The translations under genes were made by a program, and so were the position numbers. A DNA stretch of 64,000 nt from Deltaproteobacteria bacterium (GTDB lineage Bacteria; Desulfobacterota; Dissulfuribacteria; Dissulfuribacterales; Dissulfuribacteraceae): the NCBI GenBank assembly GCA_015494155.1, contig WGBU01000070.1, forward strand, positions 1 through 64,000. Reading direction: 5' to 3'. The notes under the pieces were generated by a model. The model saw only the letters and a list, made by a program, of their open reading frames with translations. It made no database searches and had not been told where the DNA came from. Positions 12,419-53,513 of this stretch are shown piece by piece. Within the stretch, counting starts at the first letter, position 1, and each line of letters opens with the position of its first letter.

Positions 12419-12632
12419 AACACTCCAAGCTCTGAATAAGATTTCATTTGACCATTAACAAAAAAATATATATAAACCTCCATCGATTCCTAGACCTAGT
12501 TTATCGGTATCTGGGTTGACTATCGGCACATAACACTTTTTTCTTTACACAAAAAAAAACTTTTTGCATATTCCATGCCTTGTACATACTTTTAGAACCT
12601 GAACAGCTATGTGAATCGTAAAAGGTATAGCC

Positions 12633-24729: not shown

Positions 24730-25086
24730 TTAGTCAATCTCTGGGGCGGGCAGGAATTCAGACTCCTTGGCTGCCAGGTCCTTGATCTCAGCAGACTTCT
24801 CCAGCACTGCCAAGACCGCATCGTCACCAAGGGACTTCTTTGCCACTACCTGATGGTAAAGCTCCCTCAAGAAGGCGACTGGTACGTCGGTGATGGCGTT
24901 CCTTGAGTCTGTCCTAGCAGTGTCAAACTCCTGGAGCACCTTGTTCTTAGTATCCTCAGAAACGTGTACCTCTACAAGCTTAAGCTCGCCGGCGAACCTG
25001 TACTTGATCTGATCGCCCAAGCCAGCCTCCTGGATGGCCTTCAAACGGCCCTCGTCAAGCAAAACATCTATGAAATAATCTGCCAT
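24730..25086 (-). CDS. Small conserved-looking protein downstream of sat, function unknown
   Basis: I do not recognise this 118-residue protein. It is acidic and mixed alpha/beta in appearance, opening with MADYFIDVLLDEGRLKAIQE. A strand-like LKLVEVHVSEDTKNKVLQEF part and a helical C-terminus follow. It has no Cys, signal peptide or membrane helix. Its ribosome binding site (GGAGGTAAAAAAAATG) is near ideal and codon use looks like that of sat. It starts 29 bases after the sat stop and is followed by a terminator, so it should be cotranscribed with sat and made in quantity. Confidence 0.75.
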   Translation of the reverse strand: MADYFIDVLLDEGRLKAIQEAGLGDQIKYRFAGELKLVEVHVSEDTKNKVLQEFDTARTDSRNAITDVPVAFLRELYHQVVAKKSLGDDAVLAVLEKSAEIKDLAAKESEFLPAPEID

Positions 25087-25115: not shown

Positions 25116-26474
25116 TTAAAGATCCTTGAGATCTACTTCGAGTTCTTTCTCTTTGTTGATCACATACTTCTCGTTGCAGAATGGGTAGTTGAAGTGCTTC
25201 CACCACTTGACCACCACCTTGAATACCTCTGGACGCATGATGATGCTTGGTGGCTGCACACCCTGAGCGACCATACCGCGGAGGAAGCTACCACTGAGCT
25301 TTTCCCTTTCATGACCGCAGGTCTCACTGTATGCCATCTCTTTACAGGTGGGGCAGAAGGAGAATTCCCTCATGTTCTGAGGCCTGATCTCAAGTCCATA
25401 GGGTACATCAGTGGGTGGTGCTGGGAAGCCAAAGCTTGGTATTCCCTCGTTCCAGAGTATCTGGGTGGACCACTTATCATAGTATTCACCCACAGCAGCA
25501 TGGTCACGGCCAAACATGTGGTGAGTACAACCCATGTTCTGACGGATGATACCATGGAGGAGGCTCTCCAATGGGTTACCATAGCGCATATCCCACAGAC
25601 AGATGGTGGGCAGATGACGTGAATTCTTGATGTATCCACCTGTGTTCACTGCCTCATGGCCTTCGACTATAGCCTCGTCTGGATAGTCACCGCGGCGCTT
25701 CACACCGATGATGGCGTTCACCAAGATGCCGTGGCATGGTTCAAGATCGCCTGTGAATGCGGCGTTCTTCATGAGGAACTCGTGACCGACGTGGGGCACG
25801 TTACGGGTCTGGTGATTGATGACTGTCCTCCAGCCCCTCTTGTCGAACTCCTCTCTTGCCTTTCTTGGTGGATACCAGAAGCGGTCGAATGGTGGGCGGA
25901 AGATGGGCTCGTTGATGATGGTGTACTTACCAGCGAGTACGATGGGGTTGAGGCTCTTATAGATGACCCAACCAGGGTGCTTTTTATTGAATTTTTCCCT
26001 GACGACCTCTGGATTGTCCTCTGGGGTACCAAAGGTCTTGTCTGCCAGCTCTTCTGTATCTGAAATCTCCCAAACCTCCTCGATGTCCAAGATGGCGAAG
26101 GGTTTGCCCTTGAGGTTTAAGACCAGCCTGTCACCAGAACCTACTCCTAGCTTCTTGAAATCCTCTTTGCTGATATCGAATACCAGTGGGTACGGGAAGA
26201 TCCACTCGTTGAGGAGTCTCCTTTCCTTTAGGATCCTTTCAACTTCTGCCTGAGACATGGAACCTTCAACAGGGCTGAAGAACCCATAGCAGATACTCAT
26301 GATCTCGCGATAGACATTCCTCACAGGGACCTCAGACTCATAGTGTAGCGTGGGCTTGATGTCGTATGTGGGGCAACCCTTGATCATCTTCTTGGCACGC
26401 TCGGGGTCTCTCACGACGCGCTCGACAAGTCTGCCTCCATGAGGCAATGGCCTTTTAATTAAAAAACGTGACAT
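25116..26474 (-). CDS. sat: Sulfate adenylyltransferase (ATP sulfurylase), dissimilatory type
   Basis: The enzyme activates sulfate to APS, or makes ATP from APS and pyrophosphate in the reverse direction. The start is ATG 26474, with AAGGAGGT 8 bases upstream; the frame extends to 26543 but lacks another site. Key motifs are HQTRNVPHVGHE (residues 221-232, the QxRNxxHxxHE active site) and GRDHAAVGEYYDKW. A Cys/His cluster FCPTCKEMAYSETCGHE near residue 390 should bind zinc, as in dissimilatory homologues. Length (452) is normal. A promoter lies at 26524-26552 and a palindromic operator at 26498-26515. apsAB and dsr genes are not in the window. Confidence 0.97.
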   Translation of the reverse strand: MSRFLIKRPLPHGGRLVERVVRDPERAKKMIKGCPTYDIKPTLHYESEVPVRNVYREIMSICYGFFSPVEGSMSQAEVERILKERRLLNEWIFPYPLVFDISKEDFKKLGVGSGDRLVLNLKGKPFAILDIEEVWEISDTEELADKTFGTPEDNPEVVREKFNKKHPGWVIYKSLNPIVLAGKYTIINEPIFRPPFDRFWYPPRKAREEFDKRGWRTVINHQTRNVPHVGHEFLMKNAAFTGDLEPCHGILVNAIIGVKRRGDYPDEAIVEGHEAVNTGGYIKNSRHLPTICLWDMRYGNPLESLLHGIIRQNMGCTHHMFGRDHAAVGEYYDKWSTQILWNEGIPSFGFPAPPTDVPYGLEIRPQNMREFSFCPTCKEMAYSETCGHEREKLSGSFLRGMVAQGVQPPSIIMRPEVFKVVVKWWKHFNYPFCNEKYVINKEKELEVDLKDL

Positions 26475-26497
26475 TCGGACACCTCCTTGGTTTTTTA

Positions 26498-26515
26498 ATA
26501 ATGAATATTCATTCA
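26498..26515. promoter_or_regulatory. Palindromic operator upstream of sat
   Basis: The site reads ATAATGA-ATAT-TCATTCA, with a perfect 14-bp core AATGAATATTCATT (26500-26513). It lies 8 bases downstream of the predicted -10, about +3 to +20, so a bound protein would block initiation. The same half-site TGAATGA and 4-base spacing recur upstream of atpZ and atpF'. Confidence 0.75.
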
Positions 26516-26523
26516 GGAAAAGC

Positions 26524-26552
26524 AGAATAGCACAAGAAATCATCCATTACAA
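26524..26552 (-). promoter_or_regulatory. Sigma-70-type promoter of sat
   Basis: On the minus strand TTGTAA (26552-26547) and TATTCT (26529-26524) are spaced by 17 bases. The start would fall near 26517, giving a leader of about 43 bases that ends in the strong sat ribosome binding site. Confidence 0.6.
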
Positions 26553-36961: not shown

Positions 36962-37678
36962 TTAGTGTCCCTCTGCCATGGCCTCTACTGAGTACACTAT
37001 AGAGAGGACGAAGAAGATGAATGCCTGAAGCAGGCAGACGAGGACACCTAGGAACATGATTGGCAAGGGAGCAAGGTATGGCCCTGCCAACATGAACAAC
37101 AGTCCAAGTAGTATCTCTTTTGAGACCATATTACCAAAAAGTCGGATGGAGAGTGAGAGGATCCTTCCGATGTGGCTGAATATCTCAATGGGGAACATCA
37201 TAGGTGCCATCCAGGGGATCGGCCCCATGAAGTGTTTTATATAGCCAAAGCCATGGAATCTTATACCAAGGATGTGGTAGAGGGCTATGGAAATTGCCGT
37301 ACAGCCCAATGTAACATTGAGGTTGGCCGTGGGCGACATGAATCCAGGGATGAGCCCCATGTAATTGCCCACAAGAATATACAACATGAATGTGGCCATA
37401 GTTGGGAGGATTATGAGGGTCTTTCTCTTGTCGTGGGTCTGCTCGTCTATAAAGTCCTCCACCCACTTTACAAACATCTCCATGAGGTTCTGGACACCCT
37501 TAGGGATCATTTCCAACTGGCGGGTGGCCAGAAGTGCCAATACCACACAGATCCCCATGGCCAGATAGCTGTATTGCATGTGTGGCGCAAGTGCCTGCGC
37601 CAAAACGCTCTGACCGCCATGTGCAGGCAGCCCCAGTGCATCAAGTATGATACTCAAAAAAAGCAGTGGATGTTCCAT
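36962..37678 (-). CDS. atpB: ATP synthase subunit a
   Basis: This 238-residue polytopic stator subunit carries the ion half-channels. The essential arginine lies in ILSLSIRLFGNMVSKEI near residue 180, and the last helices contain LQAFIFFVLSIVYS. It starts after atpI with a 5-base gap and is 54 bases upstream of atpE. Length is normal. Confidence 0.96.
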   Translation of the reverse strand: MEHPLLFLSIILDALGLPAHGGQSVLAQALAPHMQYSYLAMGICVVLALLATRQLEMIPKGVQNLMEMFVKWVEDFIDEQTHDKRKTLIILPTMATFMLYILVGNYMGLIPGFMSPTANLNVTLGCTAISIALYHILGIRFHGFGYIKHFMGPIPWMAPMMFPIEIFSHIGRILSLSIRLFGNMVSKEILLGLLFMLAGPYLAPLPIMFLGVLVCLLQAFIFFVLSIVYSVEAMAEGH

Positions 37679-37683
37679 CAGTC

Positions 37684-38094
37684 CTATGCCTCCTTCACCC
37701 TGAACTTGTAGGCAACCATGCCTAATACGAGGATATAAAAGTTGACTACCCCCACAGAAAGGCCCACAAAAAGCCCTATGGGGGAAAAGTATTCCCTAAA
37801 GAACAAAAAGGACACTGTAACGCAGAGGGCTATTAGGGCCATCCTCACAGACATCCCTCCAAAGTAAGCGGCCATTGAGCCCCAACGCACAGCACGTCTA
37901 CAATCCTTTTCCAACCCTATTGAATTGAGGCCGCTGATGGTACCACCAAGAAGGATACCCGTGGCCGCCTCATTGGAATAGAGAAAGGAGGTGACTAGTG
38001 CAAGGAGTGCCATGGAAAGCCACCCTGCCCCTATAAAGAACCTTATAAAGTCCTCTTCTAGCTCACCCCTTAAGATTTGAACTAATCCCTTCAT
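37684..38094 (-). CDS. atpI: ATP synthase assembly protein AtpI
   Basis: The 136-residue protein has four predicted transmembrane helices (about 18-38, 40-60, 75-95 and 100-125) and lies in the usual place before atpB. AtpI helps c-ring assembly or stability in other species. It is diverged and recognised mainly by position and topology. The start overlaps atpZ by 4 bases. Confidence 0.8.
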   Translation of the reverse strand: MKGLVQILRGELEEDFIRFFIGAGWLSMALLALVTSFLYSNEAATGILLGGTISGLNSIGLEKDCRRAVRWGSMAAYFGGMSVRMALIALCVTVSFLFFREYFSPIGLFVGLSVGVVNFYILVLGMVAYKFRVKEA

Positions 38095-38375
38095 TCGCCC
38101 TTTTGAGCCCCCTCTCCCGAAGGCCCCTCATCCCTATTCGCCTCTTTACTGAAGCGCTTGGTCATAATAAAAAAATTCTTTATCCCCCCTCCAATGCCAA
38201 ATAGCAGAAAGAGGAGAGTAAGCCATGGGTATGTCTTGCCGTCAAAGACCTTGACATCTAGCCAATATCCAGCAAGCACCCCGGCAAAGATGGAAAACAC
38301 TATGGAAAGAGCTATGGTCGAAGCCACGCTAAGGCTTCTAAATAAATCTCCTAGCTCTTTCTTTATGTTCCCCAT
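38091..38375 (-). CDS. atpZ: AtpZ/AtpI-type F0 accessory protein
   Basis: The roughly 94-residue protein has two transmembrane helices (VASTIALSIVFSIFAGVLAGYWLD and LTLLFLLFGIGGGIKNFF) joined by a short loop, the AtpZ layout, and a hydrophilic Lys/Glu-rich tail. Homologues form a complex with AtpI that imports Mg2+ or Ca2+ for ATP synthase in other bacteria. I use ATG 38375; a TTG lies just upstream. No good ribosome binding site is visible. It is the first gene of the F0 operon. Confidence 0.8.
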   Translation of the reverse strand: MGNIKKELGDLFRSLSVASTIALSIVFSIFAGVLAGYWLDVKVFDGKTYPWLTLLFLLFGIGGGIKNFFIMTKRFSKEANRDEGPSGEGAQKGE

Positions 38376-38413
38376 CAATTAAACCATGGTCATCCGATCT
38401 GGCATGTGCCCAC

Positions 38414-38440: not shown

Positions 38441-38469
38441 CACTTAGCACAGCCCTATCCATCTGTCAA
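38441..38469 (-). promoter_or_regulatory. Promoter of the atpZ-I-B-E operon
   Basis: On the minus strand a consensus TTGACA (38469-38464) is followed after 17 bases by a weak -10, TAAGTG (38446-38441), which has an extended-type TG upstream. The start would be near 38434, leaving a leader of about 60 bases. Confidence 0.55.
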
Positions 38470-47424: not shown

Positions 47425-47844
47425 TTAGTGGCCAGACTCTTTTGCCACCTTTAGGCGTGTGAGTGCCCTCTGAAGTGCTGCCTTAGCGCGTGCCTCGTCT
47501 ATTTCCGCCCGTCCTGCAGCCGCCTCCTGGAGCCTCTTTTCAGCCCGTTCCTTGGCGCGAAGGGCGCGTTCCACATCTATCTCCTCGGCCCTTTCAGCAG
47601 CCTCTGCCAGGACCGTCATCTTATTATTGGAGACCTCACAGAAGCCTCCACTCACAGCATATCTGGCGACATTTCCATCATTTGACACCCTCATTTCACC
47701 TATTTTTAGAGAGGCCAGTAAGGGTGCGTGATTGGCCATGACGCCGAACTCGCCATCCTCTCCAGGGGCTGTGGCGAGGTCGACCTCCTCACTCACTACC
47801 AGTCTGCTCGGTGTCACGACTTCTAATACCAGTTTGTTTGCCAT
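47425..47844 (-). CDS. atpC: ATP synthase subunit epsilon
   Basis: The 139-residue subunit has the N-terminal beta-sandwich (LVLEVVTPSRLVVSEEVDLATAPGEDGEFGV) and a C-terminal helical pair that can block rotation in other species. It ends the b'-b-delta-alpha-gamma-beta-epsilon operon, 15 bases after atpD. Confidence 0.96.
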   Translation of the reverse strand: MANKLVLEVVTPSRLVVSEEVDLATAPGEDGEFGVMANHAPLLASLKIGEMRVSNDGNVARYAVSGGFCEVSNNKMTVLAEAAERAEEIDVERALRAKERAEKRLQEAAAGRAEIDEARAKAALQRALTRLKVAKESGH

Positions 47845-47859
47845 AGCTCTTACCTATTG

Positions 47860-50180
<2,321 letters not shown>

Positions 50181-50196
50181 GTTCTTTCCCCGCTAA

Positions 50197-51723
50197 CTAC
50201 TTGATATTACGATTGGCCTTGAACTGCTGCACGAAGTCTGAGATCGTCTTATTCATCTTCTTATCCAGGGCGTCATCAATGGCCTGTTTGTCTCTGAGCT
50301 CCTGGAACACATCGGGCTTTTCCTTTTCGATATAATCGTACAGTTCCTTTTCAAAGTCTTGTAGTACGTCCACTGGTAGCTCGTCCAGCAGGCCACGGGT
50401 ACCAGCGTAGATTATCGTGACCTGTTTTTCCATGGGCAGAGGCTGATACTGTGGTTGCTTTAGGATCTCCACTAGTCTCTCACCCCTACGGAGCTGCTGC
50501 TGTGTTGCTTTGTCGAGGTCGCTACCGAACTGAGCAAATGCTGCAAGCTCCCTGTACTGCGCCAAATCGAGGCGGAGTGTACCGGCGACCTGCTTCATGG
50601 CCTTTACCTGGGCAGCACCTCCAACCCTGGAGACGGAAAGACCGACGTTAATGGCAGGGCGCACACCAGCGAAGAATAGTCCTGGCTCCAGGTAAACCTG
50701 GCCATCTGTAATGGAAATCACGTTAGTTGGAATATATGCTGACACGTCACCCTGCTGGGTCTCAATAATTGGAAGTGCTGTGAGACTGCCAGCACCCAGG
50801 TCATCATTTAATTTTGCTGCCCTCTCTAGGAGCCTAGAGTGGTTGTAGAAGATGTCACCAGGATATGCCTCACGTCCTGGCGGACGCCTGAGGAGTAGTG
50901 ACATTTCCCTGTAGGCCACAGCCTGCTTTGACAGGTCATCATAGATGATGAGGGCGTGTTTACCATTGTCGCGGAAGTACTCTCCCATGGCACATCCTGA
51001 AAATGCGCTCAGGTACTGGAGTGACGCAGGTTCACTTGCACTGGCTGCAACAACTGTAGTGTAGTCCATGGCGCCATGCCGCCTGAGGGCCTCGACAACC
51101 AAGGCCACTGTTGCCTGCTTTTGGCCAATGGCTACATAGATACAATAGACATCAGTGTCCTTCTGAGCCAGTATGGCATCGACGCCAATGGCTGTCTTAC
51201 CAATCTGACGGTCACCGATGATCAACTCGCGCTGGCCGCGGCCAATGGGTGTCATGGAGTCGATGGCCTTCAGCCCTGTGTAGCAGGGTTCGTGCACTGG
51301 CTTTCTCTCGATAACACCAGGTGCCTTCATCTCGATCCTGCGGTACTCTGAGGCATTTATGGGGCCCTTTCCATCAATGGGGTTTCCAAGGGCGTCTACG
51401 ACGCGCCCCAGAAGGGCCTCACCCACGGGCACCTGGGCGATCTTGCCAGTACGCTTGACCAGGTCGCCTTCCTTGATCTGTGTACAGTCACCCATGACTG
51501 CCACACCGACGTTGTCCTGCTCAAGGTTAAGGGCAACCCCCATAATGCCACCAGGGAACTCCAGGAGCTCCATGGCCATGCAGTTCCTCACCCCATAAAC
51601 ACGGGCAATGTTGTCACCTACGGACAGCACTGTACCCGTTTCGGCGAGGTCTATCTTTTTCTCATAGTCCTGAATCTGTTTCTTGATTATGTCACTTATT
51701 TCTGCTGCTTTTATCTGTGCCAT
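50197..51723 (-). CDS. atpA: ATP synthase subunit alpha
   Basis: The 508-residue non-catalytic F1 subunit has the P-loop GDRQIGKT near residue 170 and the alpha-type [30 protein letters not shown] block with the arginine finger region [15 protein letters not shown]. Its start overlaps the atpH stop by one base. Confidence 0.98.
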
Positions 51724-52274
51724 TATCCGAGTTCACCCCTCCCTATGGATTCTTTGAAGCCTTGTAGTTGGCTCCTTATACTGCCATCCCATACCATGTC
51801 GCCGATGTGGGCTACCACGCCGCCGATAATGGCTGGGTCTTCTTCCAATTCCAGGACAACGTCCTTGCCCGTGACCTTTGCAAGCATTTCCTTTAGCTTT
51901 CCCTTGAGGTCGTCGGGCATTGGCACGGCCGTCTTCACAACCGCGCGGACAACTCCCATCTCTTCGTCCATGAACTCCTGATAGTGCTTCTGGATGGCCT
52001 TTATAGCCTGGATGCGCCTCCTCTCTACGAGGAGTTGCATGAATTTGGTTAGTTCTTCACTTGCATTGACAGCTTTGAGGATTTCTTCGACGATCTGCGA
52101 CTTCAAGTCTGGAGGAAACACCGGACTTTCCAGCGCCTCTTCCACCTCTGGCTCTGACGCCAGATAAGAGACTATCGCAGAGAGTTGGTCGGCAAACTCC
52201 TCTAGCTTCCCTGCCTCTTTGCCAATGGCAAAGAGCGCCCTCGCATATCTTCTGGCAACGATTGAGCTAATCAA
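51723..52274 (-). CDS. atpH: ATP synthase subunit delta
   Basis: This 183-residue stator subunit connects the b/b' stalk to F1. It starts with [22 protein letters not shown], the usual N-terminal helix bundle, and ends with [26 protein letters not shown]. It overlaps both neighbours by a few bases. Confidence 0.95.
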
Positions 52275-52969
52275 TTCTTGGTCACCACCTTTTCTAAGTA
52301 TTCACTGATGAGCTTATGATGATCTTGCTCAGTCAGGTTTTTCCTTATTATATCTTCAGCCATCTTTACTGCTAGGTCGGCCACTTCTTGCTGGAGCTCG
52401 TGGCGCGCCTTCTCAAGCTCTTGCTGCACAAAGAGTTCGGCCTGCGCCTTAATACGCTCCGCCGCCTCTTTTGCCTGTTGAATGATCTTCTCTTTTTCTG
52501 CCTCACCTTGCTGGATAAAGGTATTTAGGATGCGCTCTGCCTCTTTGTCCATCTTGGCAAGCTTCTTTTCATATTCAGCATACTTCCGTTCTGCCTCCTT
52601 CTTCTTTTCATCTAGTTCCTTGAAGGAGTTCTCTATCTCTTCGGTTCGAGATTTAAGGGCGTTGGCGACAGGGGCCTTCAACAACTTTACTAACACAACC
52701 ACCAGGATGGCAAAATTGAGACAGTGCCAGACGAAGTTCATCACCTGTCCGTGGGTGAGTCCGTGGTGCTCCCCGTGTGCCGCAGCACCGGCTTCTCCAT
52801 GGGTGGCATGGGCAGCTGCCTCACCCCCAGCCTCACCATGGTGTGCCATGGCACTTTCATGGTGCACCCCAGCACCCTCCTCCACAGCAAATGTAGAGGC
52901 AACCGACATGGGCCATCCGCTTACGATTATGGCAGTTAATACAATTCCCAAAAGACTCTTTAGGTTCAT
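52271..52969 (-). CDS. atpF: ATP synthase subunit b with exported His-rich extension
   Basis: The 232-residue b subunit has an added N-terminus: a signal-like hydrophobic stretch (residues 5-28), then about 45 residues rich in His, Ala, Gly and Glu (GVHHESAMAHHGEAGGEA, then THGEAGAAAHGEHHGLTHGQ). The normal b transmembrane helix (about 83-103) and the long stalk coiled coil follow. The His-rich arm should face the periplasm and holds about ten His, so it could bind metal. Whether the leader is cleaved is unknown. It directly follows atpF'. Confidence 0.93.
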   Translation of the reverse strand: MNLKSLLGIVLTAIIVSGWPMSVASTFAVEEGAGVHHESAMAHHGEAGGEAAAHATHGEAGAAAHGEHHGLTHGQVMNFVWHCLNFAILVVVLVKLLKAPVANALKSRTEEIENSFKELDEKKKEAERKYAEYEKKLAKMDKEAERILNTFIQQGEAEKEKIIQQAKEAAERIKAQAELFVQQELEKARHELQQEVADLAVKMAEDIIRKNLTEQDHHKLISEYLEKVVTKN

Positions 52970-53395
52970 TTATATTGCCCTCCCCAGGAGCTTCTGAGCA
53001 ATCTCCATCGCAAAGGCCTCTGCCTGCGCCTTCAGCTCTGCCCTCGCTGCCTCCACTTGGGCAGTGAGCTGGCCGAGCAACTCTTGCTTCTTCTGCGATG
53101 CCTCCTTTGTACTCTCCTCGATCAAGGCCTTTTCCTCCTCCCTGGCCTGGGCCTTGAGCTCCTCCCTCTTCTTCATCCCCTGAGAACGGGCACTAGCCAA
53201 TTTGGCATTAAAGTTCTCAAGGAGTTGATCTGCATTGCGCTCAAACCGTTCGGCCTCCTCCTTGATAGCGGCCATTTTGGACTCACGCTCTTGCAGCATC
53301 TGTCGAATGGGCTTGTAGAGGAGAGAATTAAGGACCACAATCAGGATGAGCATGCCTATTATCTGGAACCAGATAGAGGCGTCTATTGTTATCAT
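52970..53395 (-). CDS. ATP synthase subunit b'
   Basis: The 141-residue second b-type subunit has an N-terminal membrane helix (WFQIIGMLILIVVLNSLLYKPI) and a long stalk helix. It lacks the exported extension of its neighbour. The b/b' pair implies a heterodimeric stator, as in other Desulfobacterota and phototrophs. It is the first gene of the operon. An operator and a promoter lie 57-118 bases upstream. Confidence 0.93.
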   Translation of the reverse strand: MITIDASIWFQIIGMLILIVVLNSLLYKPIRQMLQERESKMAAIKEEAERFERNADQLLENFNAKLASARSQGMKKREELKAQAREEEKALIEESTKEASQKKQELLGQLTAQVEAARAELKAQAEAFAMEIAQKLLGRAI

Positions 53396-53451: not shown

Positions 53452-53469
53452 AAAATGAACAATCATTCA
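53452..53469. promoter_or_regulatory. Palindromic operator upstream of the atpF' operon
   Basis: The plus strand reads AAAATGA-ACAA-TCATTCA: one perfect TGAATGA half-site (minus strand) and one diverged half-site, with 4-base spacing. It falls about +10 to +27 from the predicted start, downstream of the -10, as at sat and atpZ. Confidence 0.7.
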
Positions 53470-53484
53470 TTTTTTCAAAAAATG

Positions 53485-53513
53485 CTTTTACTCCATTATT
53501 TCCCCTATGTCAA
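53485..53513 (-). promoter_or_regulatory. Promoter of the atpF'-F-H-A-G-D-C operon
   Basis: On the minus strand TTGACA (53513-53508) and TAAAAG (53490-53485) are spaced by 17 bases; the start would be near 53478. A second, weaker candidate (TTGTTC 53462-53457 with GATATA 53439-53434, 17-base spacing) would put the operator on its -35. Confidence 0.6.

Follow-up and report, generated by a model that had tools for sequence, protein, structure and literature searches.

A FadR-like TetR-family protein as a candidate switch for sulfur and energy metabolism genes in an order of sulfate reducers and sulfur disproportionators

The regulation of the core pathway in sulfate reducers is little known outside Desulfovibrio, in which Rex and HcpR have been implicated. 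Rex, an NADH-sensing repressor, represses sat in D. vulgaris (PMC7531388, citing Christensen 2015 and Ravcheev 2012), and its regulon appears to include other sulfate-reduction and ATP synthase genes. HcpR, a CRP/FNR regulator, is predicted to have sites before sat and apsAB of Desulfovibrio, but dsrAB is not included (PMC545781). In addition, a TetR-type repressor with a palindromic operator has been proposed for the sulP clusters in Desulfobacteraceae, where it would control a sulfate transporter cluster locally rather than a pathway-wide regulon, and it was not shown to be FadR-like (PMC11887813). In Bacillus, FadR (YsiA) of the TetR family represses five beta-oxidation operons and is released by C14-C20 acyl-CoA (PMC4525379). 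No paper describing a FadR-type regulon for dissimilatory sulfate reduction was found in the literature searched. In this study, a palindrome of the FadR box type was found at the promoters of sat and both ATP synthase operons, and the comparative evidence suggested that one FadR-like regulator probably controls these and most other sulfur and energy operons in the order.

The window was the whole 64,000-nucleotide stretch analysed (contig WGBU01000070.1, positions 1 to 64,000), and its features are listed in Table 1 together with the relevant features on other contigs of the same genome (G000, 2.38 Mb). The first-pass annotation had proposed that sat, atpZIBE and atpF'FHAGDC share a TGAATGA-N4-TCATTCA operator just downstream of a 17-spaced promoter, and this was confirmed: the three palindromes lie 8-15 bases downstream of such promoters. 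However, strict matches to TGAATGA-N4-TCATTCA were 12, 13 and 12 of 14 positions, and the better shared core was TGAAT-N4-ATTCA. The statistics depended on how the motif was written. The 18-mer with up to 3 mismatches was not above chance in the window (6 against 3.95 expected) and gave mostly noise in the genome (104 against 34 for the reversed control). In contrast, the conserved part TGAATG-N5-TCATT occurred exactly 3 times in the window, only at these three promoters, against 0.08 expected, and 0 of 100 shuffles reached 3. In the whole genome it occurred exactly 5 times, the other two being at the fadR-like gene and a sulfur-transporter ORF. The first-pass annotation had found no other such site in intergenic DNA, but one further weak core was present between pilM and lepA, which was probably due to chance. 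The simple sigma-70 scan did not call the proposed promoters (the consensus scan was inconclusive for atpZ), but for atpF' the TTGACA-N17-TAAAAG pair was conserved in nearly all the genera aligned.

Table 1. Coordinates of the operators, predicted promoters and genes. Positions refer to the window unless a contig or locus is given.
Location	Strand	Feature	Sequence or basis
12433..12446		weak core in the divergent pilM/lepA intergenic region	TGAATAAGATTTCA, 1 mismatch
24730..25086		DUF6955 gene directly downstream of sat	function unknown
25116..26477	-	sat, sulfate adenylyltransferase	start ATG at 26477 behind AAGGAGGTG; TIGR00339, 417 bits; relatives align from residue 1 of this start, and the longer ORF start at 26543 is not supported by homologues
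26498..26515	-	operator at the sat promoter, 8 bases after the -10	TGAATGAATATTCATTAT, containing the perfect palindrome AATGAATATTCATT and a TGAAT-N4-ATTCA core on either strand
26524..26529	-	predicted -10 of sat	TATTCT
26547..26552	-	predicted -35 of sat	TTGTAA, 17-bp spacer
36962..38378	-	atpZ, atpI, atpB	PF09527, PF03899, TIGR01131
38414..38431	-	operator at the atpZIB(E) promoter	plus strand TGAATGACCATTCATTCT
38441..38469	-	predicted promoter of atpZ	TTGACA (38469-38464), 17 bp, TAAGTG (38446-38441)
47425..53395	-	atpF' and the downstream ATP synthase genes (atpFHAGDC by order and length)	ATP-synt_B, F0F1 subunit B' for the first gene; ORF list for the rest
53452..53469	-	operator at the atpF' promoter	TGAATGATTGTTCATTTT
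53485..53513	-	predicted promoter of atpF'	TTGACA (53513-53508), 17 bp, TAAAAG (53490-53485)
contig C98, 919..936		operator of the fadR-like gene	TGAATGAATATACATTCA, one mismatch, behind TTGACA
contig C98, 994..1581		fadR-like TetR-family gene	starts 57 bases after its operator
locus L306 (contig C152), 2240..2797		small RsbRD_N-domain gene leading the dsrMK operon

The genome encoded only two TetR proteins, and one of them was FadR-like. It matched FadR of B. halodurans and B. subtilis (phmmer 1.6e-37 and 1e-35), with the PDB FadR entries 5gp9 and 3whb among the best hits. The TetR_N domain PF00440 scored 51.8 bits against a cut-off of 24, and the YsiA-like C-terminal domain PF08359 scored 95.2 bits against 21. 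Furthermore, the recognition helix VADGTIYLYF was identical to that of both Bacillus proteins, and the LRQS motif was shared. However, the NCBIfam FadR score of 192.1 bits was 8 bits below the equivalog cut-off of 200, and the protein was accordingly called FadR-like. Orthologues (74-94% identity) occurred in nearly all genomes of the order. A palindrome was present in the promoter of 30 of 30 orthologues examined, 28 of which carried the TGAATGA-N4-TCATTCA box with at most 1 mismatch and the other two with 2 and 3.

The distribution of the element in related genomes was in agreement with a shared operator for a FadR-type TetR regulator, as the first-pass annotation had suggested, but the regulon was much wider than the three operons named. 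One-mismatch 18-mers fell before dsrAB, aprBA-qmo, dsrMK with an RsbRD_N leader gene, nuoA, Mn-pyrophosphatase, fhs and a divergent sat; the gene names were read from the translations, and several were confirmed by HMM. The RsbRD_N gene at the head of dsrMK, in this genome and in relatives, may point to a stress-type switch. Sites inside the phosphate-permease ORF (loci L280 and L289) and in loci L291, L292, L300, L305 and L308 were judged coding or chance. A matrix trained only on the fadR promoters scored >=10 upstream of atpF' in 22/29 genomes (76%), dsrA in 21/30 (70%), divergent sat in 11/20 (55%), nuoA in 13/30 (43%) and atpZ in 9/30 (30%). The corresponding values were 0.3-1.3% in shuffled controls and 1 of 94 other intergenic regions, and that one lay in the atp locus of the related genome G002. 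This matrix under-counted the targets because it was trained on the double site. The aprB gene looked negative in most genomes because aprBA follows sat in one operon there.

The spacing was tested with TGAAT-Nn-ATTCA for n = 0 to 12, and only n = 4 was strongly and generally enriched, whereas n = 8, the 18-mer of the first-pass annotation, was strong mainly in fadR promoters. With at most one mismatch, the n = 4 core was present upstream of fadR in 29/30, dsrA in 29/30, nuoA in 27/30, atpZ in 24/30, atpF' in 42/43 and divergent sat in 16/19, with about 0-2 expected; under stricter position limits the count for atpF' was 39/43. In the related genome G012, a core with one mismatch lay closer to the atpF' start. 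The genomes compared are related, so the counts are not independent. The perfect 18-bp FadR box TGAATGAATATTCATTCA contains two n = 4 cores offset by 4 bp. Moreover, in the related genomes G007 (TTACTGAATGCATATTCAGTAA) and G012 (ATGAATTATTATTCATT) the fadR promoter itself had only the n = 4 core, which ties the core to the regulator and, with the spacing scan, merges the TGAATGA-N4-TCATTCA and ACTGAAT-N4-ATTCAGT forms into one. The double box might be read by two dimers; the PDB entries 5gp9 and 5gpc share six chains, which is compatible with this inference but proves nothing.

In 19 genera, the arms of the atpF' operator were 100% and 99% identical, while the central four bases were 64% and the flanks 46-59% identical. 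Outgroup genomes with 57-61% FadR or none lacked the operator. Related genome G022, which lacks fadR, had no atpF' operator and no dsrA core and kept only degenerate sites at nuoA and aprB, whereas its sister G032 had fadR and the atpF' operator, although its dsrA and nuoA sites were also weak (2 mismatches). There were exceptions: genomes G009 and G016 had fadR but no atpF' site, and G035 and G045 had the site but no fadR was found in these MAGs, which are 95% and 55% complete. In the genome under study, the window plus 20 stretches (441 kb, some chosen because they held hits) contained nine exact cores. All of them lay upstream of sulfur or energy genes, namely sat, atpZ, dsrA, a YeeE/YedE-type sulfur transporter, nuoA, the dsrMK operon, dsrC, a class III cytochrome c and ppaC. 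In addition, aprBA was preceded by ACTGAGTGGCGATTCAGT, one mismatch from the core, 8 bases after TTGACA-N17-TATAAG.

The sat operator itself was lineage-specific. The sat of the window was of a Thermosulfurimonas-like type, and nearly identical copies in G001, G002, G025 and G035 shared the promoter but not this operator. The -35 and -10 were kept in the near-identical sat loci L018, L019 and L131. In L018 and L019, about 25-45 bases upstream of sat, the operator position was taken by a different palindrome, TTCCGTATCC[AG/TA]TACGGAA, suggesting that another regulator took over this promoter. Most of the order used a divergent sat (about 30% identical) that heads sat-aprBA and has its own operator. 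G025 lacked the divergent sat of its genus but kept before aprBA (contig C87; L278, 3047) the box TGAATGAGCATTCATTTA, identical to that before the divergent sat in G037 (contig C138). A core was also present at the window-type sat of G009 (TGAATGGGAATTCATT). Thus the operator appears to have been acquired independently at an incoming sat gene, which is a sign of selection, but this rests on two genomes.

The best explanation, held with fair confidence, is that the palindromes are operators of the FadR-like repressor encoded on contig C98, a dimer of which would read TGAAT-N4-ATTCA. The operators usually lie just downstream of the -10, where a bound repressor would block initiation or clearance. 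The regulator would then repress its own gene and, in this order, sat, aprBA, dsrAB, dsrC, dsrMKJOP, pyrophosphatase, complex I and both ATP synthase operons, although binding, the direction of control and the ligand are inferred from sequence. By analogy with Bacillus FadR, long-chain acyl-CoA would lift repression and tie energy-gene expression to acyl-CoA supply, but this ligand is tentative and somewhat less likely than not. If it holds, membrane-lipid or carbon status would directly set energy conservation. Compared with Bacillus FadR, the protein has the same domains, recognition helix and box type and a box in its own promoter region, but the operators here sit mostly as single N4 cores at genes of sulfate activation and reduction, complex I, pyrophosphatase and ATP synthase. 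It is more likely than not that a regulator of fatty-acid degradation has been rewired in the entire order into the master repressor of the dissimilatory sulfate-reduction pathway, complex I and ATP synthase, with operators gained afresh at a horizontally acquired sat gene and lost where the regulator is lost. It would also be a clean case of regulator replacement and operator turnover.

Among the ALTERNATIVES, a second, unidentified regulator sharing the core was the serious one, although it was considered unlikely. In that case, the FadR-like protein would bind only the N8 box of its own promoter, while the other regulator would bind TGAAT-N4-ATTCA at the energy genes and at fadR. The N8 form was indeed strong mainly in fadR promoters (28/30 exact) and the N4 form at the energy genes, and the two palindromes differed in letters when aligned on their centres. 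However, every perfect TGAATGAATATTCATTCA box contains N4 cores, nearly all fadR promoters held the N4 core and those of G007 and G012 held only that, and the loss of the atpF' operator went with the loss of fadR in G022. Moreover, sat, atpZ and atpF' in the window satisfied both forms with few mismatches. Chance or passively inherited promoter sequence was highly improbable, even though the loose 18-mer was not enriched in the window and related genomes share promoters, because the arms were invariant while the central bases and flanks varied at atpF', the sites were enriched over shuffles and control regions, and operators recurred at non-orthologous sat genes.

Rex and HcpR did not fit, and both were regarded as very unlikely. 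The genome has one Rex, and the targets seem to overlap with the Rex regulon of Desulfovibrio. However, the Rex box, probably TTGTGAA-N4-TTCACAA, differs in letters and by 2 bp in spacing. Rex was also patchy in this order, while the fadR-like gene was nearly universal; no Rex was found in the f2 genomes and in others such as G001, G005, G008 and G040-G042 that keep the operators. The sites of HcpR have TGA-N6-TCA spacing (TTGTGA-N6-TCACAA or ATTTGACC-N2-GGTCAAAT), whereas the spacing here was TGA-N8-TCA, and HcpR was disfavoured on spacing and letters, without a search for CRP/FNR genes in these genomes.

The order is probably Dissulfuribacterales, since a locus labelled Seep-SRB2 carried the same element upstream of sat as G028 of this order and Seep-SRB2 is placed there (PMC10553843), although this naming is inferred. 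The order appears to include partners of methane-oxidising archaea (Seep-SRB2) and obligate sulfur disproportionators, for which the evidence names a candidate master regulator, its operator and a testable regulon of about a dozen operons. The switch of targets may be older than this order. In the same phylum, the outgroup genomes G050 and G058 had fadR beside etf-like or hydroxyacyl-CoA dehydrogenase-like genes; the box beside beta-oxidation genes in G050 (TGAATGACCGCTCATTCA) fitted the N8 box but not a full N4 core. In G046, of another order, perfect 18-bp boxes lay between sat and aprBA, before a cbiA-like/dsrC pair and at fadR itself, and a one-mismatch box lay near an rnfC-like gene of an rnf-like operon. 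In G048, perfect or near-perfect boxes lay near genes resembling, from their translations only, CODH/ACS, Rnf, hydrogenase/NuoE-type and succinyl-CoA synthetase genes, and a related regulator may control other energy pathways elsewhere in the phylum.
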